NCBI RefSeq assembly: GCF_921293095.1
Contig: NC_060258.1
Coordinates: 6,586,607 to 6,650,606 of the forward strand
Source of the DNA: Ischnura elegans
Taxonomy: Eukaryota; Arthropoda; Insecta; Odonata; Coenagrionidae
Reading direction: 5' to 3'
DNA length: 64,000 nucleotides
The notes below the pieces were generated by a model. The model did not search any database and was not told where the DNA came from. It saw only the letters and a program-made list of their open reading frames with translations. The position numbers and the translations under genes were made by a program. This document shows, one piece after another, positions 50,409 through 61,857 of the stretch (its first letter is position 1; every line of letters starts with the position of its first letter).

Positions 50409-50412
50409 TTAA

Positions 50413-52174
50413 CACTAGAACCGCGGACTTTTTCGTATACCTAGAACCGCGGAGGGGGTCATTTTGACCCCTCGTCTTTTCTTGCCATATTTTCAGTATT
50501 TTGGGTTTCTTTTGGATACTGCACTATGTGAAATGAATTATCTGAGATTTACAATGAAATTTGAATGATATGTGGGCGGTATAAGCGCTAGATAGGCTAC
50601 CCGCCTTGCACAAATAATGCGTTTTTCACATTTTTACTATATGTTCGGCTGAGGATGGGGGAAAAATGTAAATTTATTTAAGAAAAAAGAAACACTTTTA
50701 TTGGTGCAGAGAAGCATACAGTAATGAAGAATGTCTAGTCAAGCTCCAAGTTCCTTGCTCCGTACGTGCATACAAAACTGCAATGAATGCTTCCGGTTCA
50801 TCCATAGATACCGACCAGTCCTTCTCCCCACTTTCTTCACGAGCCCGATTTTCCGTGCACATCTTCATGTGCTTCAGCATAGTTGGAGTTATCACCAAAT
50901 CCCATGCTGAGCGAACATCACCCTCAGTGAAGAAGAAGATTGAAGACTAGCACGCCCCCGGCGAGAACCACCTCGTCCTCGTACCTGGCCACGAGGAGCG
51001 GCAGCAGCAGACTCAAGCGGCTCGTCGTCTTCAGCAGGTGCGACTACAGCATCGCCACCCCCACGTCCTCGATGGCCCCGAGCACCACGGCAGAGGCCCT
51101 GGGCAGTTCCAGGGCGACCCCGTCCCTCGAGCAGGAACTGTGGACGCGACTTGGTCCACGGGAGGCTGTATTTGGGGACCACGTCCACGTCGTAGAGTGC
51201 GGGTGGTTGGCGGCTGATAGGGAACGTACTCCTAACCTTCATTACCTGTACCAAACAAAATAAATGCTTTATGAAATAGATTTGTAACAATTATCAAAGA
51301 ATGCGAGTAAAATAAAAATAGGAAACTTACCAGTGTCTTCGCTTGAATCTTCAGTCAAGGACTCTTCACTGTCTTCCTCGGCGTCAACGCCGCCGTCATA
51401 CACTACAACAGGATCATCCTCCGCCTCAGAGCAATCCTCAGGCACATCCTGAAGTTGCTCGAGAATACGAAAGACCTGGTCTGCGGTGTATCCCTTTGAC
51501 CGACGCATCGCTGGGCGTTGAATGGAGTATCACCCTTGAAACGGTATTGCCCTTCGTTCAGCGCTGAGCGATGCAGCGCAACAATCGAACGGGCGAGACG
51601 AACTACCGCGCAAACTGATGAATTCGGGTGAATTGCGAAGTATTACATTGTAATTCATGTAATTGAGCTGGCGACTACAATGACGCCACACTGGTAGGGG
51701 AGGCACGGTAGGAGAAGGAAGGAGCCTTGAGTGGAGGTAGCCGAGGAAACGGGGGTGCCCGGAAATTTTCGCGTAGATCCATTTCTACGCGGCTCGACTC
51801 TCACATTCTTTCAGGCGTCCGCTGAGCAGGTTGCCTTTATCTGCGGCCTAATAAGAAACGACAGAGGTAATCCATGCCATTCCTATACATTCGACCTTCG
51901 AAAATAACGCTTGCGGTGAATTTCTGCTGCGAAAATATAAAGTTCGGGAACGACAACAGAGCAGGGGTCAAAATGACCCCTACCGCGGTTCTAGGTATAT
52001 TGTTGTCTAGTGTTCACAAAAATAGTCCTAGAGCGTCGGAATTTCGCACGAATACGCCTTTCTACAATTCATTAAAAGTCAGAAAATGTCAGGTTGGTGA
52101 AAAAAAAATTAAGTGTGAAATATACATGTTGAAAATCGTAAGGGGTCAATTTGACCCCCTCCGCGGTTCTAGTG
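50413..52174 (-). mobile_element. piggyBac element A, internally deleted
   Basis: A 1762-bp element bounded by TTAA on both sides (50409-50412 and 52175-52178). The terminal inverted repeats are CACTAGAACCGCGG. On the left, a second CTAGAACCGCGG (50441) precedes the palindrome GGGGTCATTTTGACCCC at 50455-50471. On the right, the palindrome GGGGTCAATTTGACCCC lies at 52142-52158, 16 nt from the end, with a further copy at 51964-51980. The transposase is on the minus strand (50698-51508) and lacks the catalytic core. An AATAAA word follows its stop on the minus strand. The element can at best be mobilised by a related transposase. Confidence 0.9.
50698..51508 (-). pseudogene. piggyBac transposase of element A, N-terminal part only
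   Basis: The minus-strand start at 51508 gives about 59 residues of acidic N-terminus typical of piggyBac transposases (RSKGYTADQVFRILEQLQDV, then an EDSEESLTEDSSED run). A well-formed 85-bp intron follows (gtaagt at 51330, ggtacag ending 51246). The next segment has an RG-rich stretch (RGQVRGRGGSRRGR) in one frame. It passes by a one-base shift near 50900 into SAWDLVITPTMLKHMKM and DEPEAFIAVLYART, which match the conserved start of the DDE_Tnp_1_7 region. The frame then runs to a stop at 50698 without any catalytic aspartate block. The spliced frame also meets a stop just after the intron. So the protein is broken as well as truncated. Confidence 0.8.
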
Positions 52175-52178
52175 TTAA

Positions 52179-53570
52179 TTTCACGTAAAAGTATCGATTT
52201 TTTCATATCAATTACTAGCTCAAGTTATATCAACTCCACACATTTTTCAATGCTAGAATTAAAAAAAAAGTTAACTAACCCGTGAAATTCATAAGTAAAC
52301 TAAAGAAATGTAACATTAGCATGCAAAAATATCAAAAAAAAACTAAGAAGTATGCATGAAAAATGTTAAACAATGTTACAACTATTATTATCTTTAAAGA
52401 AGTTTTGTAAATTGCGTGTTGTTATTCAGGAACAGACGTCATGATTTTTCCTTCTGGTACCAAACTCTATTTCCTGTAATATATTCATTCATTTTGTGTA
52501 TTTTTGCAAGAGAACAAGTATAGAGGAAGTCCTTTATGATACACCTTTTCCGCTATTTAAAACCTAATTACACCGTTTCCTTAACATACTGATTCCCTGA
52601 TAGTTTCAAGTGGAAAATTTTCGCACGGATTAGCGAGTATTATTTATTTTCCTTCAATGCAATTTGGCCGGCCCTATATCGAATGTGGAATTGAGGTGCA
52701 TTTCCTGTGTGGCAGACTGCACCGCGATACAAATGAGTATTTGCGTGTTGCATATACGGCGGGGTGTAGCTATATAATATAAGCCGGTGTCCCACGGTCA
52801 AATTTGTATGCAACTGAAAGGGGGTCTCTCACGATCCATCTCGTTTGGATCAAAAGATGGAAAACAATAAATAAGGAAAATGTTATGGACGTTTTATTAA
52901 TAAATGATGGACGTTGTAGTTGAGATTATATTATGAATTATGCTGGAAACGCAAATTGAAATCACATTTTGCTCTCCTCGTCGAGCAGTTACTAAAATAA
53001 GGTCCTTATCATTTAATCATAGTGATCGAAACGGGCAGCCGTAGTGTTTCACAGGTAGTCATTTATCCAGCTGCTCGCTCGCTCGGAATCGCATGCCCTC
53101 TACAAAATTAACCTGTAGAATTTTCCCTCGATACCTTAAGTAAATCTTTTATTTTTTCAAAAATATGCCTCCTAGTATTGCGAGTCAAAAAGACTGCTTC
53201 CTTCTTATTATACGTGAACTCATGATTACGGATATTCTGGTTGAGAGGTTCCATCACCTATATAGACCAATTTTTGCTCATTTTTACTTTTAGGACAAAA
53301 ACAGGCGATAAAATAGACGATCACGAACGTAAATATATATTTGAAATAATGTTTTGTGAATTCACCTCGAGGTATGGTGACATTATACATTCATAACTAA
53401 ACCTTATAGTATTCCATTCAGTACTTATGAAAAACCTCAACCGATTTCGATTTTTTCAGGTCTTTATCTAGAGGTTTTCGATCATGATAATGACCTGAAA
53501 AGGTGGAAACCGGTTGGGTTTTGAATGCATACTGTGTGGAATACAACAAAGTTAATTTTTGTGCTCATAA
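52179..53570. other. Unassigned; possible outer repeat end
   Basis: At 52785 the words 'aagccggtgtcccacggtca' resemble, in inverted form, sequence at about 54375-54400 ('gaccgtgagagacggtg'). This raises the possibility of one older element spanning 52.8-54.4 kb. A 'gaccgtggg'-type match alone is weak evidence. Nothing coding. Confidence 0.3.
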
Positions 53571-53572
53571 AA

Positions 53573-54162
53573 CAGTAGATTCCAATTAATTGGGACCTAT
53601 CGGGACTTGTGCACTTTGCCCCAATTAGGCGAACTCTCGTATATGAGCATGAAAAACTTTGAAATGGTAGAAAGAAGACAAAGGAACGTTTATAATGCAA
53701 CCTAAGTTTATTAAACCATTACTTTGATTAATAAATCAGTAAAATAAGTTAAATTATTATCATTTTTAAGGATTATAATTATTTAGTTAAAACTATTTTT
53801 CACAGCCTCGGGCGACGTTGAATGAATGTCTTTTACTTAATCCTATTAAAGAAATTCCTATCCTTTTGCAGAGTGTAACAACAAGAGCTTTCAAAATAGG
53901 GAAACAATAGGAACATATGTGAAAAATAAGAGTAATTCAAAGGGGAAAATAAAAAATAGTTTTCTGAAAACCAGCAACTTTAATTTCGTCGCTAGTATAG
54001 AGTCTATGTCGCCGACTCATGGAGCAATAAAGCGGCTTCCTGTCCCAACTAAGCTGAGAATACTCTAAGATATTCCTGTCTATTGGGTTCTGTTCTTCAA
54101 GATCTGCCCCAACTAAGCGGCTGCCCCAAGTAACCGGTGGACCCATTAAGCGGACTCTACTG
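53573..54162 (-). mobile_element. pogo-type non-autonomous element
   Basis: The inverted right end reads CAGTAGAGTCCGCTTAATGG and the left end CAGTAGATTCCAATTAATTG; both share 'aattgggaccta/aatgggtcca' spacing. About 590 bp, non-coding. The right-hand 190 bp match the fragment at 3448-3636. A TA is present on the right side but not clearly on the left, so the exact left boundary is uncertain. Confidence 0.6.
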
Positions 54163-54863
54163 TATATATATTTATTAATTAAAATGCTCATGCAGATGAT
54201 TAATAAGTTTAATATATGTGGCCTGTGTGTCAGCAGCTTGGCAATGGTTTTTTGTCAAAGGCTCTGAGATTGGTTGGTTTCATCCAAATTGGATGAACAT
54301 TTAGAACCCGTCCTATCCATTAGGATAAAACGATTTTGGTCCAAATGGTCGGACCAAAAGTCAGTTGGATGAAATTTTGACCGTGAGAGACGGTGCGCGT
54401 CAGTTGTATCAAAATTTAATGCAAATGTTTCCATGGAAATTTGACCATGTATTATTGGCTTTAACCCTCGAGTGAGAGCGTTGGCATATAAAGTACGCCA
54501 GTCTTCAAAAACCAAGAATTTCAACATTGTACTTACATTCTGGTCTAAATTGGCCCCGTGTATTCTTACATTGTACTTTAACTGTCTGTAGCACGAGTTT
54601 TCAAAGATCGACGTTTTGTAGCAGATTTTTTTAATCGACAAGAAGAACTCGACACCCGTGGCGTATAAATTACGCAGCGTAACCGGCCGTATGCCAACTC
54701 TGTCTCACCTATAAGCTTGAACTAATTTCTACAAATTATAATCTTACAATACATATGAAGTACAATGTTGAAATCCTTGGTTTTCGAAGACTGGCAAACT
54801 TTATTCCCCAACTAGCTAGCTCGAATGTTAATATTATCAGAGAGGATTTATATATTTGTATTA
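54163..54863. other. Unassigned sequence
   Basis: A 128-codon minus-strand frame at 54255-54641 has no recognised domain. Its first part covers repeated 'ttggatgaa', 'ggtcca' words that look like repeat DNA. Confidence 0.35.
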
Positions 54864-55088
54864 TTAAGACTAGAACTACCGATGGAGTCATTTTGACTCC
54901 TCGCCATTTTTATTTCTCTGCCCTGTCTAAAATTTTCCGAATTCCGGCCTGAAATTCCGTGACTTTTATTCATTTTTGACACAAAATAAGGCTTTGCGGT
55001 TAAAATAATTTTATAAAATAAAATTGTCCACGTTTTTCAAAATTTACCTTTGACTACCAAAGGGAGTCATTTTGACTCCCTAATGTAT

Positions 55089-56327
55089 TGTGACGAAAAG
55101 CCTCGTCACGGCGCATTCTGCGTCCATCTCATCTCCCCGATTCATATTGGCGCGCGGCAACAGCGAGTGATGAGCGACCTTCTTTTCTTTTTCCTATGTT
55201 GTCTGCTAGAATTTAGCATGTCTCTTGTTTTGTAAAGGGTATATAAGGCCCGGTATTGTGGGATGTGGGGTTGGATTCCTGAGAAAGCGGCAGTTGTTCC
55301 GCTAGAGAAGACGGAGGTCAGCTGTGACAGTGCCAAGGTGGGGCGACAAGACGGGGTTGCGGCAGACGAGGGCTACGGCAATTTCGGAGGTCGGGCAACG
55401 CGACCAGGGGAAGGGCGTGCGGAGAGAGAAGCGTGGAGTACAGCGAGACACGAGAAAAGTGTCCTTGCTTTTTCGTCAGGACATCACGACATCGTCCAAG
55501 GATTTGCGGGAGGTGGTTCCCCGCGATCGACGCATCGTGACCCGGCGGCCAGGATTCGGACCCGCCGCCTTTGACACTTAAGTACTCTAAACCCTCTCCC
55601 GGGACAGGGAAATAATCCCGATCCCTCCCCCGCTCCAGCCAGCCCACGCGCCCTGTACGAAGAAAGTCCCCCAGTGTGCACGTGTGTCATCCTAATACTC
55701 ATGTGGCTTCTGACACAAACTCACGTCTCTCTTTCTCGGTCTGAAGACCATTTTTAATTGTATCACGATTCTCCCGTTCTCGTCATCCCTTCTGGTTGAT
55801 GTCAGACTCATTTTTGATTGAACAGAACGTGGAGCATGTAACATTTGAAAGTAGAACGACGAACATTACTCATAATCGCCTTTGAAGTGCAGCAAGATTT
55901 CGAGTGCCCGTGTCATAGCAATCTCTGAGAGTATACAGTGTTATTTTTGTCCATTTTTGTTCATTTACCCCAACAATCATCTCATCCCTCATTTATTAGA
56001 TATAAGATTTCTCTTTCTTTTTGTGTATGGCATATTTCCTTCATTTTTATTTCTGCAAGTGTATCATTGATGTCTCGCCCAATTCAGCATCACTATTCCA
56101 TCCCTCATTAGCGTTTAAGGACAGAAGTGTTCGTTTATTTTTCTCTAATAAATTTTTGTATGACAGTCATTCGCTGTGTACGAGGTCATTCATCCCCTTG
56201 CTGTGCCATTGTGTTTAATGCCGCGAGTTCCCATCTTGACCGCGAGCCCCAGAACCTACGAAAAATTAAGAACTCGGATAATAATCTCAGTTCGACGGTG
56301 CATGGCTCACGGGAGCGTACCGCCACA
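55089..56327 (+). repeat. 5' LTR
   Basis: 1239 bp, the same length as the right LTR, with about five substitutions seen by eye. One is at 55568 and another changes the terminal CGTCACA to CGCCACA. A TATATAAG box (55240-55247) and an AATAAA signal (56147-56152) mark the likely U3/R/U5 organisation. All open frames in it recur in the other LTR and are not separate genes. Confidence 0.93.
55240..55247 (+). promoter_or_regulatory. LTR TATA box
   Basis: TATATAAG about 150 bp into the LTR, the likely core promoter of the retroelement. The identical copy lies at 58423-58430 in the right LTR. Upstream of it is the U3 region with the TGTGACG edge. Confidence 0.7.
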
Positions 56328-56690
56328 TCTGGCGTCCGACAACGCGGGGCCCGACCACGAGGGGACTCGCATTTAATTTTAATGTTCGTTTTTGATGCCA
56401 CGAGGTTGGCACGTTTTGATCAAACGGCGTGTCGGGCGCGTTCCGTCACATCTGGCGCCCGACAACGCGGGGCTCGATCAGGGGAGAACTTGCCATTTAA
56501 TTTTAATGTTCGTTTTTGATGCCACGAGGTTGGCACGTTTTGATCAAACGGCGTGTTGGGCGCGTACCGTCACATCTGGCGGCCAAGAACGCGCAGCTCG
56601 ATCACGAGAAAACTTTCCATTTAATTTTAATGTTTGTTTTCGATGCCACTGTATTGGCACATTTTGATCATTCGGCGCTCGCGTCAGCTA
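56328..56690 (+). repeat. Tandem leader repeat containing primer-binding-like sites
   Basis: Three units of 123-124 bp begin with TCTGGCG at 56328, 56451 and 56575, followed by a partial fourth unit to about 56690. In the second and third units the preceding bases, CCGTCACA, repeat the end of the LTR. So each unit carries an LTR edge plus a primer-binding-like word (TCTGGCGCCCGACAACGCGG or variants). The rest of the unit has the phrase 'gccacgaggttggcacgttt'. Divergence among units is moderate. The repeated short frames here (56127-56722) are artefacts of the duplication. Confidence 0.85.
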
Positions 56691-56963
56691 TTAGTGCATT
56701 TCACCCATATGAATGCGCGTGACCACGAGCCAACTCGTGATTATTATGTAATTGGGTTCAGGTTAGTCGACCATTTGTTAGTTATAGTGTCACGCCATTG
56801 GCAATCCATTCTCAAGTTTGAATCCGATTGTGTGTTTTTCTTGTACCATCGCGTTGTCGGTTTTCTTTTCTATTTTTTTTGGTGTTTGTGGCCGATGAAT
56901 GGTGGTCTACGGGTCGTTGGGGTATCCCTTTGTTTTATTCCTGTTGTTTAAGGGGATCCAATT

Positions 56964-58418
56964 ATGAATACGTCCGACGATAAGGCACCCGCGTTTACCG
57001 TGTATCGGGAGGTCGCGAACGAAGTAGACGACTCCGACGACAAGAGCGCGAATTCGGGAACCGATGATTTAACTGACACATTCCGGGGAATGCTGTTAGA
57101 CACGCCGGGTTCCGGCATGAATGGGCAAAGTAAAACACAGCGTGAAGGTGACGAGGGGGGCGAAGCCAGCCGAACCGAATCGAGTCACGATTCTAATGAT
57201 GATTATGTGTCTAATAAAACAATCTTATTGATGATACAGAGCATGCGCTCTGAGATTAGCGCTCAGATTAACGCTAGTAACGAGAGCCTGAGCGCTCAGC
57301 TTAACGCTAATAATGAAGCCATACAGAGCATGCGCTCTGAGATGAGTACAAATAATGAAGCCATACAGAGCATGCGCTCTGAGATGAGTACAAATATTGA
57401 AGCATTGCGTCAGGAAATTAATCATAATCTACGACAGGAAGTTAGGAGTTGTCATGGTATTTTAATGCAGGAAGTTAATAGTTGTCGTGATATTCTACGG
57501 CAGGAAAAGTCCGTAATTAAAGATAAACTAAACAATGGTGAAACTCATTGCCTAGAAAAGGTGAATGAGATCGCGAAAAATGATCGCGATGAATGTCTAA
57601 GGGTGGTTGATTCACAAGTTGAAAACCTAGAGGTGCGCACAGACGCTCTAGAACGCTCTTATAATGACATTGCAAATCTTAAAAAGCACGAGGAAAATGC
57701 CGTCGAAATAGACGAACGCAGGGTAAAATCGCTCGAAGCGGAATTTGAGGCATTGAAGGATAGCGGCACGCCAGTAGCAACGGCGACGTTATCAAGTGAG
57801 TCATTGACGAAGCCCGTGTTCTCCGCTCGAGACGCCGATCACCCGATAGCGTTTTTAAAAGAAGTGGAAAATTGTCTCTCGATGATTACCGTTCCGGAAA
57901 CGATGAAATCAAAAATGATTTTTACTGAAGATTCGGAAATCGGGAGGGAAATTTTAATTTTGTTTGCCACCCGCCAGTTAAAAAAGGCTGGGCTCAAAAG
58001 AAAGCGTAGTCAAGACAAGACCCATTCTAATTTTCATGTCAGGGATTTAGTCTTGTTAAGGACACCTAAGGTGTCTGATACCCAGCTTGGGTTGTTTCAT
58101 AAGTTTTTTCATTTGCTCTCGGGTCTATTTAGAATCTCAAGTTTAGTTTTCGTTTGTTGCTCGTTCATCTGGCTTATTCTTTCCGCGATATGCATGGATT
58201 CATCTCTTTCGTTTGGACACATCTTTTTCATTCACCCCTTAGGAAAGAGATGCATCCATGCAGGGGGGCGATGTGACGAAAAGCCTCGTCACGGCGCATT
58301 CTGCGTCCATCTCATCTCCCCGATTCATATTGGCGCGCGGCAACAGCGAGTGATGAGCGACCTTCTTTTCTTTTTCCTATGTTGTCTGCTAGAATTTAGC
58401 ATGTCTCTTGTTTTGTAA
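56964..58418 (+). CDS. Gag fused to the C-terminus of integrase (deletion derivative)
   Basis: The 484-codon frame begins with an acidic region (residues 1-80). It continues with a long helical, coiled-coil segment (about 80-255) containing two 14-residue repeats (NNEAIQSMRSEMST), and then a gag-like core start (FSARDADHPIAFLKEVENCL, about 290). Within a few residues, near residue 330, the sequence switches to the tail of a gypsy-type integrase (KRKRSQDKTHSNFHVRDLVL, LLRTPKVSDTQLGLFHKFFH). So almost all of pol is missing and the two ends of the polyprotein are in one frame. The last part (after about residue 435) is LTR sequence and not real coding. It could still yield a gag-like protein, which in related elements assembles into cytoplasmic particles, but this is inference. 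Confidence 0.8.
   Translation: MNTSDDKAPAFTVYREVANEVDDSDDKSANSGTDDLTDTFRGMLLDTPGSGMNGQSKTQREGDEGGEASRTESSHDSNDDYVSNKTILLMIQSMRSEISAQINASNESLSAQLNANNEAIQSMRSEMSTNNEAIQSMRSEMSTNIEALRQEINHNLRQEVRSCHGILMQEVNSCRDILRQEKSVIKDKLNNGETHCLEKVNEIAKNDRDECLRVVDSQVENLEVRTDALERSYNDIANLKKHEENAVEIDERRVKSLEAEFEALKDSGTPVATATLSSESLTKPVFSARDADHPIAFLKEVENCLSMITVPETMKSKMIFTEDSEIGREILILFATRQLKKAGLKRKRSQDKTHSNFHVRDLVLLRTPKVSDTQLGLFHKFFHLLSGLFRISSLVFVCCSFIWLILSAICMDSSLSFGHIFFIHPLGKRCIHAGGRCDEKPRHGAFCVHLISPIHIGARQQRVMSDLLFFFLCCLLEFSMSLVL
58260..58271 (+). other. Polypurine tract
   Basis: GCAGGGGGGCGA directly before the right LTR, the expected primer site for plus-strand DNA synthesis. Confidence 0.75.
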
Positions 58419-59510
58419 AGGGTATATAAGGCCCGGTATTGTGGGATGTGGGGTTGGATTCCTGAGAAAGCGGCAGTTGTTCCGCTAGAGAAGACGGAGG
58501 TCAGCTGTGACAGTGCCAAGGTGGGGCGACAAGACGGGGTTGCGGCAGACGAGGGCTACGGCAATTTCGGAGGTCGGGCAACGCGACCAGGGGAAGGGCG
58601 TGCGGAGAGAGAAGCGTGGAGTACAGCGAGACACGAGAAAAGTGTCCTTGCTTTTTCGTCAGGACATCACGACATCGTCCAAGGATTTGCGGGAGGTGGT
58701 TCCCCGCGATCGACGCATCGTGACCCGGCGGCCAGGATTCGGACCCGCCGTCTTTGACACTTAAGTACTCTAAACCCTCTCCCGGGACGGGGAAATAATC
58801 CCGATCCCTCCCCCGCTCCAGCCAGCCCACGCGCCCTGTACGAAGAAAGTCCCCCAGTGTGCACGTGTGTCATCCTAATACTCATGTGGCTTCCGACACA
58901 AACTCACGTCTCTCTTTCTCGGTCTGAAGACCATTTTTAATTGTATCACGATTCTCCCGTTCTCGTCATCCCTTCTGGTTGATGTCAGACTCATTTTTGA
59001 TTGAACAGAACGTGGAGCATGTAACATTTGAAAGTAGAACGACGAACATTACTCATAATTGCCTTTGAAGTGCAGCAAGATTTCGAGTGCCCGTGTCATA
59101 GCAATCTCTGAGAGTATACAGTGTTATTTTTGTCCATTTTTGTTCATTTACCCCAACAATCATCTCATCCCTCATTTATTAGATATAAGATTTCTCTTTC
59201 TTTTTGTGTATGGCATATTTCCTTCATTTTTATTTCTGCAAGTGTATCATTGATGTCTCGCCCAATTCAGCATCACTATTCCATCCCTCATTAGCGTTTA
59301 AGGACAGAAGTGTTCGTTTATTTTTCTCTAATAAATTTTTGTATGACAGTCATTCGCTGTGTACGAGGTCATTCATCCCCTTGCTGTGCCATTGTGTTTA
59401 ATGCCGCGAGTTCCCATCTTGACCGCGAGCCCCAGAACCTACGAAAAATTAAGAACTCGGATAATAATCTCAGTTCGACGGTGCATGGCTCACGGGAGCG
59501 TACCGTCACA
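58272..59510 (+). repeat. 3' LTR
   Basis: 1239 bp, ending CGTCACA and followed by the GTAT duplication. TATA box at 58423-58430 and AATAAA at 59330-59335, as in the left LTR. Confidence 0.93.
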
Positions 59511-60147
59511 GTATTTAGCTTGTATTTTCACCGAATAGTAATATTTATTCAAGTGTTTATCTTTTTTTATGTTAATAATAATTAATTGAAATCAATCAAT
59601 GGCTTGAATATACAATTTTTTTCCTTTTGGCCCATATTTGCGAGACTTTGAAAGCATTTCTTATTTTACGGGTCTGTGTTTGGATCTACAAACTATGTGA
59701 ATGTCCTGATATTATTTTACCTTGCGATAAAGTGGTGAATATGCAATTCATAGCATTTTCAAATTCATGTGTTTAGAATCCGTCGTTTGTGCCCCTTTTC
59801 CCTTACACTTTCCTTCTGGCCGCCCACCTTTGCCGCCGCCTGCTAATACTGTGTATTGCGCTGCAGCACTATTATTTAAGCCTTGACTGCGTGGAAGTTG
59901 ATTTTCAAATATGAGAAAGTACCTTTGATATACTGATTCCCCAGAAAAATAGATACACTGATGAACCAGGAAAATAAATCAGTAGAATGAAATAAAGTTA
60001 CCGTCCTAGTACGTTCCGACAGCGCTGGCTGCCGGGTGCCGCACAGGAAAACCGTGTGCTGTCCTTTGCATTAGTCAATCCAGTGAACTCTCGAGTGGAC
60101 TGCAAAACTCCTATGAAGAAAGGATTTCATTCTTCCTGACTGGCAGT

Positions 60148-61460
60148 ATGGCTAGAAGAAGTAGTCGAAGGCGTGAAAAAGTCCTATCTATGTTGCATTC
60201 TATACCGGAAGGTGAATCGGAACGCGAAACAAAAGATCATTCCGGCTGTGACGAAGTCGAGGATTTTATTCCTCAAAACGTTTCTAGCGAGTCTGAAGAT
60301 TCAGACAAAACGTGTGCGAAATATAAGCAGTAATTTACATTTACTTCCCCTATCATAGGTAGTTACAAAAAAAGGTATTATCTACGATTATTTATCGATT
60401 CGTTTATACTGACTCACATAAAGCGATGTACAATTGTGGAACCACGCAGGCAAAATTACGAAGATTTCACTCTTTCCGATGTGGAGCAAGTTGCATGTAT
60501 AGCCATATTTTATGCCCGTGGAATATCAGGTACAAATGATCACTCTACTGAGAGTATTTGGTCAAACGACTGGGGAATACCATTTTCTGCAACGAACGAC
60601 TAGGTTTGTTAACATTTGGTAATGTCTAAGGTTTGATGAGAAATCTAACCTATTCCAGTGGCTCAAAACTGTCAAGTTTGCCCTCTTTTCAAGAGTGTAC
60701 GATAGTTTCATAGAGAATTACATTGCTTGTTACACACCTGGTCCGTACATTATAGTTGATGAACAACTTTTTCCCAGTATAAATAGGTATATTTAACTCT
60801 GTACATTCCTTATAATTCGGACAAATACCCCCATGAATATTGGCTACCTATTGATAAGGATAGCAAATATCTTGCAAACGCCTTCCCTTATGTTAGAAAA
60901 GGTAATTCACTTCATGCAGATTGCCGTTTAGCAGTACTGAAGCTATTGCAACCCTTTCTGAAAAAGGGCGAAATGTTACGGTATATAATTACTTTACCTC
61001 AGTCAAACTCGCTGAACAGCAAAAAATCCAGGGTAATAGCATTGTGGGAAAGGTAAATAAAAGAGAACAGAAGAACCAAAAGAGATGAAATCACAAATAT
61101 ACCACAAGAACGTCTACTCAGTGACAGCCTATCCACTCGTTGGAAAATACTCCCGACTTAGCAGGTATTCATAGATAGTGTGCAATGAGACTACCTAAAA
61201 CATTTCGCCCAAGACGTTTTAGAAAAAGCTCGTTACAGAGTTGGCTCCTCATGTTAGATGTAGATAAAAGCGTTGCGTGTCCAATGCCGTAGATTCTTCT
61301 GACGGGTTTCTGCAAAATAAGTATTTCCAGGCAAAACCAAAGTGCAAAAATAATCGATCAGTTGGGAATTGTATGACCTGCCAAAAGTCTTTGTGTGGGC
61401 AACGAAAATGAACGACCATGCTTGAACTCTAAAGCACCTTAGACAAATGCGTGGTGTTAT
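60148..61460 (+). pseudogene. piggyBac transposase of element B, decayed
   Basis: It starts with MARRSSRRREKVL and an acidic segment (DEVEDF, SSESEDSD), then a stop at 60331. In shifted frames the conserved region follows. Its blocks are QVACIAIFYARGISGTND, WSNDWGIPFSATND, RFDEKSNLFQWLK, FIENYIACYTPGPYIIVDEQ (first catalytic Asp present), SDKYPHEYWLPIDKDSKYL and NAFPYVRKGN. Next comes NVTVYNYFTSVKLAEQQ, where the second catalytic Asp of the usual DNYFTS is replaced by Tyr. A cysteine-bearing tail (to about 61440) corresponds to the C-terminal zinc-binding region, now degenerate. At least three frameshifts and several stops rule out activity. Confidence 0.85.
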
Positions 61461-61857
61461 CAACAGCAATTTTTTTTGCTTTATTTAATTATCTTCCCAA
61501 CTTCCATGTAGCCTAAGTAATATTTTTGATCATTCAAACAATATCATAAAATGTGTTGAAAAGTCTACGTTTGCTGTTTTATCCAATTCCTTTATTAACA
61601 TTCTGTTAAAACCACATAACATGTAAGAAAAAAGAATTTCAAAGCAACACTGTCAAATTTCGCATTTTTTTAATTATATTTTTTTGTTAAAGCGACGTCT
61701 AAAATATTGCAATAATCAACAAAAATGATAAACTAATACAATGTATCAATAAAAACAGAGATAAACTGCAAAAATAAGCAATTACAAGGTAGGAGTCAAA
61801 ATGACTCCATTCGGTAGTTCTAGGGGGGGGTGTCAAGTCCGGTATTCCTAGTGTTAA

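Follow-up and report, generated by a model that had tools for sequence, protein, structure and literature searches.

The left ends of two piggyBac-type transposable elements, A and B, which lie in a 64,000-nucleotide stretch of Ischnura elegans contig NC_060258.1 (positions 6,586,607 to 6,650,606; this whole stretch is referred to as the window), each carry two 17-bp palindromes: P1, located 16 nt from the tip, and P2, located 178 nt (A) or 179 nt (B) from P1 towards the interior. This architecture is conserved in four subfamilies of the same genome, the arms of the palindromes change in concert, and P2 is depleted of variants shared between copies when subfamilies A to C are pooled. On balance we favour the reading that P2 is a third transposase-dimer module that aids transposition in cis, and that its arms co-vary with those of the end palindromes through one protein domain. 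We infer both the binding of transposase to P2 and its positive role in cis by analogy with characterized piggyBac systems.

In the window, a search with GGRGTCAWWTTGACYCC allowing up to 3 mismatches gave 13 matches versus 1.21 expected, a number reached in 0 of 100 shuffles; the matches are both strands of six sites, three in each element (Table 1), and one 3-mismatch match at 53181. A chance origin of the palindromes is ruled out by these shuffles and by the genome-wide reversed controls given below. The first-pass annotation had located all six palindromes correctly, and its spacings of 16, 178/179 and 42/45 nt are exact. Its end coordinates needed only small corrections, with A ending at 52174, B ending at 61853 and the TTAA lying outside, while the 45 nt at the right end of B is true of the window copy, which has an extra C, but not of the family, the distance being 44 in all 13 other full-length copies whose right end was found. 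The left end begins with CACTAGAACCGCGGAG-GGGGTCAAATTGACCCC in A and GACTAGAACTACCGAT-GGAGTCATTTTGACTCC in B, and the terminal inverted repeats (TIRs) are CACTAGAACCGCGG at both ends of A and imperfect in B (GACTAGAACTACCG versus CACTAGGAATACCG).

These ends show the TTAA duplication and short TIRs of the piggyBac superfamily, and they resemble the group of Trichoplusia ni piggyBac (IFP2) in having subterminal palindromes 16 nt inside one tip and about 44 nt inside the other (window copies: 16 and 42/45), with a core, GTCAWWW(T/G)AC, that from its sequence would be a site for a cross-brace C-terminal zinc domain. The T. ni half-site, TGCGTCA in one arm, fits the pattern KGNGTCA found here; TTAA is likewise shared, and the CCCTAGAAA-type tip of T. 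ni corresponds to CACTAGAA here. The elements do not fit the piggyBat group, in which the left-end modules are 44 bp apart versus 178-179 bp here. The proposed piggyBac end architecture of TTAA, inverted ends and 16/44-nt asymmetry also holds in other copies in the genome. The right end was located in 21 other copies, of which 20 have TTAA at that end (the exception, L046, has TTTA) and 19 have the palindrome 42, 43 or 44 nt inside, the remaining two having distances of 16 and 17. One C copy (L048) has a right end shortened by about 26 bp, apparently through loss between its two TIR copies; this end is now left-end-like, with the palindrome 17 nt inside and TTAA kept.

The genome that holds the window (1.72 Gb in 110 contigs) contains 1565 matches to the self-complementary pattern GGRGTCAWWWTGACYCC, where the reversed control has 2, and left ends of the generic form TTAA-CTAG-16 nt-core palindrome number 841, with 0 in the control. 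We read the first 100 left ends listed of these 841, all of which have an intact P1 core, CTAG and TTAA; 53 belong to subfamily B, 25 to C, 11 to A and 9 to D, while 2 (L018 and L053) have odd ends and were kept for the analysis of P1 arms and left out of that of P2. The layout, previously described for two subfamilies and upheld for A and B, is shared by at least four. Rather than being missing or variably spaced in other copies, which the first-pass annotation had regarded as the outcome that would speak against it, P2 was found in 86 of the 98 classified left ends (A 11/11, B 43/53, C 24/25, D 8/9). The distance from P1 is narrow in A (178 in 8 of 11, range 177-180), B (exactly 179 in 39 of 43, range 176-181) and C (178-182 in 22 of 24, with 176 and 165 in the remaining two), and looser in D (169-183). 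Perfect B palindromes are found as direct pairs 162-192 apart 321 times genome-wide (control 0); in 98 of the 100 pairs listed the distance is exactly 179, and in the remaining two it is 178 and 176 (computed by hand).

This spacing has been kept while the intervening DNA turned over. In consensus sequences built from 3 A, 23 B, 8 C and 4 D copies, the spacer between P1 and P2 is barely alignable across subfamilies (six pairwise z scores from -0.8 to 2.5, against single-base shuffles), yet the consensus distances are 178, 179, 179 and 175 (A, B, C, D) and the terminal unit is back in register at P2, where the motif found ahead of P1 recurs: CCGCGG (A), CTACC (B), ATGCC (C) and ATGCCC (D). A TGACTTTTA block near position 93 (consensus about 92-112), between P1 and P2, is also kept in A, B and C. 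It could be argued that P2 is a functionless relic left by an old duplication of the end, and that gene conversion between the three repeats or low mutability has preserved the likeness; the internal unit of A, in which CCTAGAACCGCGG and the palindrome appear again, does match the right-end unit at 89% over 45 nt; in addition, both private and shared variants are low in the P2 of C. We nevertheless consider a relic very improbable, because the 178-179 bp are held between subfamilies whose intervening DNA hardly aligns, because P2 changes in concert with the arms of its subfamily, and because the centre of P1 in A is AAATT while that of P2 and the right end is TTTT, which argues that the repeats have not simply been homogenized.

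The concerted change of the arms is most evident in the half-site letters. The compensated arms described for the window copies, GGGGTCA/TGACCCC in A and GGAGTCA/TGACTCC in B, are also found in other genome copies. Independent mutation of the arms, which had been named as an outcome against the idea, is not what the P1 sites show: of the 100 left ends, 87 have arms complementary at all three outer positions and 13 at two of them (position 3 in 99, position 2 in 96 and position 1 in 92). On the 3' arm these outer bases, which lie outside GTCA..TGAC, had no part in the search pattern. In the half-site KGNGTCA, position 3 is G in A, A in B, T in C and G in D, and A and D, which share this letter, are separated at position 1 (G versus T). 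Every one of the 80 P2 sites that could be parsed, out of 98, bears the position-3 letter of its subfamily, as do all 24 right-end sites found among the 40 long loci. In the end palindromes of T. ni the printed sequence has C at position 3 on both arms, so that, with G, A and T in the subfamilies, all four letters are in use. Since the palindromes resemble the site that the C-terminal domain of the T. ni piggyBac transposase binds as a dimer (Chen 2020, PMC7351741), the compensation would reflect recognition by a two-fold symmetric protein and probably not a fold of DNA or RNA.

The third line of evidence is the conservation of P2 itself. Variants present in at least 2 copies were taken as likely inherited by lineages that spread, and columns with such shared variants were counted in P2 versus the background: 0/17 versus 64/225 in B (p = 0.0079), 2/17 versus 76/225 in C (p = 0.065), 0/17 versus 20/225 in A (p = 0.37), 0/17 versus 17/225 in D (p = 0.62), and 2/51 versus 160/675 when A, B and C are pooled (p = 3.6e-4). 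Counts by cell, where cells are non-independent, are 15/748 versus 696/10073 in B, 6/415 versus 560/5558 in C, 0/187 versus 82/2473 in A and 18/153 versus 193/1952 in D; counted in this way, variants are depleted in the P2 of A, B and C but not of D. Both comparisons omit eight rows, namely six fold-back miniature inverted-repeat transposable elements (MITEs), L112 and L045; the column comparison additionally omits four copies with P2 lost (L020, L021, L025 and L048), while the cell comparison keeps full-length copies without P2.

Table 1. Positions of the features of elements A and B in the window
Feature	Position	Strand	Description
Element A	50413..52174	-	piggyBac-type, 1762 bp, non-autonomous; TTAA-bounded, inverted ends; left end at the 52174 side
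TTAA target site, A right-end side	50409..50412	.	read from sequence
TTAA target site, A left-end side	52175..52178	.	read from sequence
A right-end TIR	50413..50426	+	CACTAGAACCGCGG
A right-end palindrome	50455..50471	.	GGGGTCATTTTGACCCC; 42 nt from end; preceded by a second CCTAGAACCGCGG
A internal palindrome P2	51964..51980	.	within a repeat of the terminal unit (CCTAGAACCGCGGTA + palindrome, minus strand)
A left-end palindrome P1	52142..52158	.	16 nt from end
Element B	54868..61853	+	piggyBac-type, 6986 bp with nested LTR element; about 2560 bp without it (by arithmetic)
TTAA target site, B left-end side	54864..54867	.	read from sequence
TTAA target site, B right-end side	61854..61857	.	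read from sequence
B left-end palindrome P1	54884..54900	.	GGAGTCATTTTGACTCC; 16 nt from end
B internal palindrome P2	55063..55079	.	preceded by GACTACCAAAG
B right-end palindrome	61792..61808	.	45 nt from end
B transposase remnant	60596..61097	+	two weak DDE_Tnp_1_7 matches in different frames (profile 79-159 and 201-248)

Element B contains a nested long terminal repeat (LTR) element at 55089-59510, flanked by a GTAT duplication, with LTRs at 55089-56327 and 58272-59510 (1239 bp, 5 differences) and one open reading frame (ORF) of 484 amino acids that has no Pfam match above the cut-off; the LTR element begins 9 bp past the inner edge of P2. Two other loci, L049 and L028, have an ORF that resembles a long interspersed nuclear element (LINE) reverse transcriptase by eye, in L049 within an A element.

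The transposase gene of B is broken. Its DDE_Tnp_1_7 domain, which surfaced in Pfam scans of the window only once stops were read as X, has an E value of 1.2e-4 and a score of 22.0 bits versus a cut-off of 22.4, and a second piece has an E value of 0.025; the sole PDB sequence match of one B piece is a weak one (E 0.91) to the T. ni piggyBac transposase (6x67). Element A has no Pfam transposase match in its ORF pieces or in three read-through minus frames, and its left end would be the transposase-5' end from the position of P2, the layout and an N-terminal-like ORF judged by eye. No ORF of at least 150 amino acids looked transposase-like by eye in the 40 long loci or in the majority sequences made from 12 copies of B and 3 of C. 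The same stop in the transposase frame is present in all 12 full-length B copies that were aligned (the 2830-bp L032 is not among them), although an intron at this place is possible. The retention of P2 in A, which is without a recognizable transposase, and in B, with its shared stop, both families apparently having moved in trans, argues for a role in cis over control of a transposase gene, though history could mislead here.

Such control is what an alternative reading proposes, in which P2 is an operator where the element's own transposase binds its promoter and represses or activates it, providing a brake on copy number. The position of P2 fits this idea, as it is confined to the left end, where it lies between the tip and the start of the transposase. 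In T. ni the 5' internal domain holds the region of the transposase transcription start (Shi 2007, PMC1783651), and the third palindrome described below falls in that stretch of the left end. Selection in autonomous parents could also explain part of the retention of P2 in copies with no functional gene. An operator, however, would not need a fixed distance of 179 bp from the tip, and this distance is what has been kept; together with the persistence of P2 in A and in the 12 B copies, this leads us to regard an operator as unlikely.

Intact piggyBac transposases do occur elsewhere in this genome, where 116 were scored among 9242 candidates, many of them intact. The intact ones are of several lengths, with several groups having identical scores, which suggests that other piggyBac families have been recently active. 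Among 12 upstream regions, each of 1.2 kb, 6 have a TTAA-C-N-C end; no end was recognized in the remaining 6, where it may lie beyond the region. Another piggyBac family (L128 and L130) has a different palindrome, TGCGACACTGTGTCGCG, which pairs at 7 of 8 places and begins at position 17 counted from TTAA. In three loci with intact transposases (L126, L128 and L130) the best second unit lies about 43 nt in, with 18 of 29 letters matching, a weak match given a null 95% value of 17 and a null maximum of 17 to 19; in L128 and L130 it resembles the layout of piggyBat. From these sequences the 178-179 layout seems to mark a group with CTAG tips and not all piggyBac elements.

Several copies are without P2. 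One B copy (L020) is otherwise of full length and has lost the palindrome, another (L021) is a deletion form of about 615 bp cut within P2, L112 is a short left-right MITE without P2 and L045 is probably of another family; P2 is truncated in L048 (C), and L025 (D) has no recognizable P2. Six B ends (L031, L034, L042, L046, L047 and L054) belong to fold-back MITEs, about 217 bp long, that have two outer left ends but neither a right end nor P2. L046 and L054 consist of left-end bases 1-175 and an inverted copy of bases 44-1, and the other four are similar by eye or alignment. A perfect inverted pair at the MITE distance occurs at 22 loci genome-wide, which are MITE-like by eye over 80 letters per strand. 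As these MITEs have moved, P2 is at most helpful and not strictly required. Their spread is unlike the behaviour of T. ni donors with two 35-bp left ends, which are inactive with the native transposase (Chen 2020, PMC7351741).

The extra palindrome had been described as not part of the classic account of piggyBac. P2 itself is confirmed, and the statement agrees with published descriptions, in that Shi 2007 (PMC1783651) and Chen 2020 (PMC7351741), as far as their accounts of the ends go, give two 19-bp repeats for T. ni piggyBac; as a departure from T. ni piggyBac it holds less well, since T. ni seems to have a third, imperfect palindrome of its own. This palindrome, GTGAGTCAAAATGACGCA, is found in printed left-end primers, which give GCGTGAGTCAAAATGACGCATGAT or parts of it (PMC7734426, PMC4944971, PMC9262180). 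Of the 215 letters of the T. ni left end that we used for comparison, 162 are matched by printed sequences; 49 spacer nucleotides are unmatched and one printed primer disagrees. In this partly confirmed sequence the third palindrome presumably lies 163 nt farther in than the first, its unit in inverted orientation; after it there presumably stands ACGTGACTTTTA, as in the TGACTTTTA block kept in A, B and C. The T. ni unit is right-end-like, matching the right-end unit at 25 of 31 positions (maximum 21 in 500 shuffles; partly confirmed sequence), whereas P2 here is direct and 178-179 nt from P1. Among the papers brought up by literature searches for a published third site in piggyBac were those on piggyBat and Chen 2020. 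We do not claim that the third T. ni site has gone unnoticed, as T. ni piggyBac and PLE-wu have been placed in a class with complex ends and, like the elements described here, more than one internal repeat (PMC8086355, citing Bouallegue 2017), and that survey may include such a site. Four matches of the generic end pattern in viral contigs, with no second core palindrome in the stretch scanned, were taken as chance; two T. ni-specific patterns had no match in the viral contigs, and the T. ni left end used for comparison had none in collections of Escherichia coli genomes and plasmids.

If P2 is a third dimer module, its action can be pictured from structures of piggyBac and piggyBat (PMC7351741, PMC11707139), by analogy with which a module would consist of a core-contact motif and a 17-bp palindrome, the latter a site for a dimer of the C-terminal zinc (cysteine-rich) domain. 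The left end would then hold two modules, the outer one at the tip and P2 about 17 helical turns inward (179/10.5 = 17.05; 15.5 for T. ni, from partly confirmed sequence), giving three dimer sites together with the right-end site. Chen 2020 (PMC7351741) proposed one dimer at the tips and another at the right-end repeat; a dimer on P2 may join, or loop onto, this two-dimer transpososome and make the correct left-right synapsis likelier. Because one domain would read both half-sites at three modules, a change in its specificity would force the same change at six half-sites, with one position of KGNGTCA taking most of it. A precedent is LEtandem, a man-made left end in which a region of the right end is repeated and which, like P2, provides a third C-terminal-domain site on the left end, raising activity about two-fold (PMC7351741); natural P2 would be such a site. 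In addition, Meir 2011 (PMC3078864) cites a drop in Drosophila transformation from 15% to 0.6% when the donors had minimal ends.

A number of observations weigh against a helpful third module. By columns, only B reaches p < 0.05 as a single subfamily; D shows no excess conservation of P2 by columns (p = 0.62) or by cells, and its P2 mostly has one imperfect half-site. The P2 of C is poor in private variants too (1/17 versus 85/225 columns, p = 0.007), a result not expected if selection acted on source lineages only, and low mutability or conversion may be at work there. L020 and L021 have lost P2, and the fold-back MITEs, which make up 6 of the 53 B left ends and have 22 perfect loci genome-wide, have spread without it. 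The loci searched contained no intact transposase of subfamilies A to D, and at six ends of other families the best match to the end unit, the only one considered, was never near 179. The third palindrome of T. ni is imperfect, with TGAGTCA versus TGCGTCA, that is, A versus C at position 3. In HEK 293 cells, piggyBac with shortened ends, from which most end sequence had been removed, was more active (PMC3078864). In piggyBat of Myotis lucifugus, which likewise has asymmetric ends and three left-end dimer modules of core motif and palindrome, removal of the third left-end site raised activity about 8.7-fold (PMC11707139).

The last two results would suit a P2 that is an inhibitory third site, where a bound dimer disturbs synapsis and tempers activity, as the innermost left-end site of piggyBat strongly does (PMC11707139). 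The piggyBat modules, however, are 44 bp and not 179 bp apart, and their palindrome is unrelated and has no counterpart at the right end (PMC11707139). Selection for self-restraint should also be weak in non-autonomous copies, and copies with P2 outnumber those without it (43 of 53 B left ends; 321 direct versus 22 inverted perfect pairs). We therefore consider an inhibitory P2 quite improbable, and continue to favour a module that aids transposition.

A broader reading, which we offer tentatively and find rather doubtful as a whole, is that the piggyBac-group transpososome has from ancient times included a third dimer site at a fixed distance inside the left end, one that T. ni has too, though undescribed; that, at about 16-17 turns, near the length of one nucleosome, it is looped to the synapse, marks the left end and enforces left-right pairing; and that co-resident subfamilies are kept apart by a letter code at one position of six half-sites. 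The imperfection of the T. ni palindrome makes an ancient shared third site less likely, and a basis of the spacing in nucleosome length is speculation.

The ends of piggyBac vectors are often trimmed to 35 and 63 bp, with which insect germ-line transformation falls while human cells do well (PMC3078864), and a conserved third site in the discarded stretch is a candidate cause of the loss in the insect germ line. The four subfamilies also offer natural pairs of half-site letters with which the DNA choice of the C-terminal zinc domain may be studied, and these letters would help in the design of transposon systems free of cross-reaction. Finally, the presence of P2 bears on the number of dimers in the natural piggyBac synapse.

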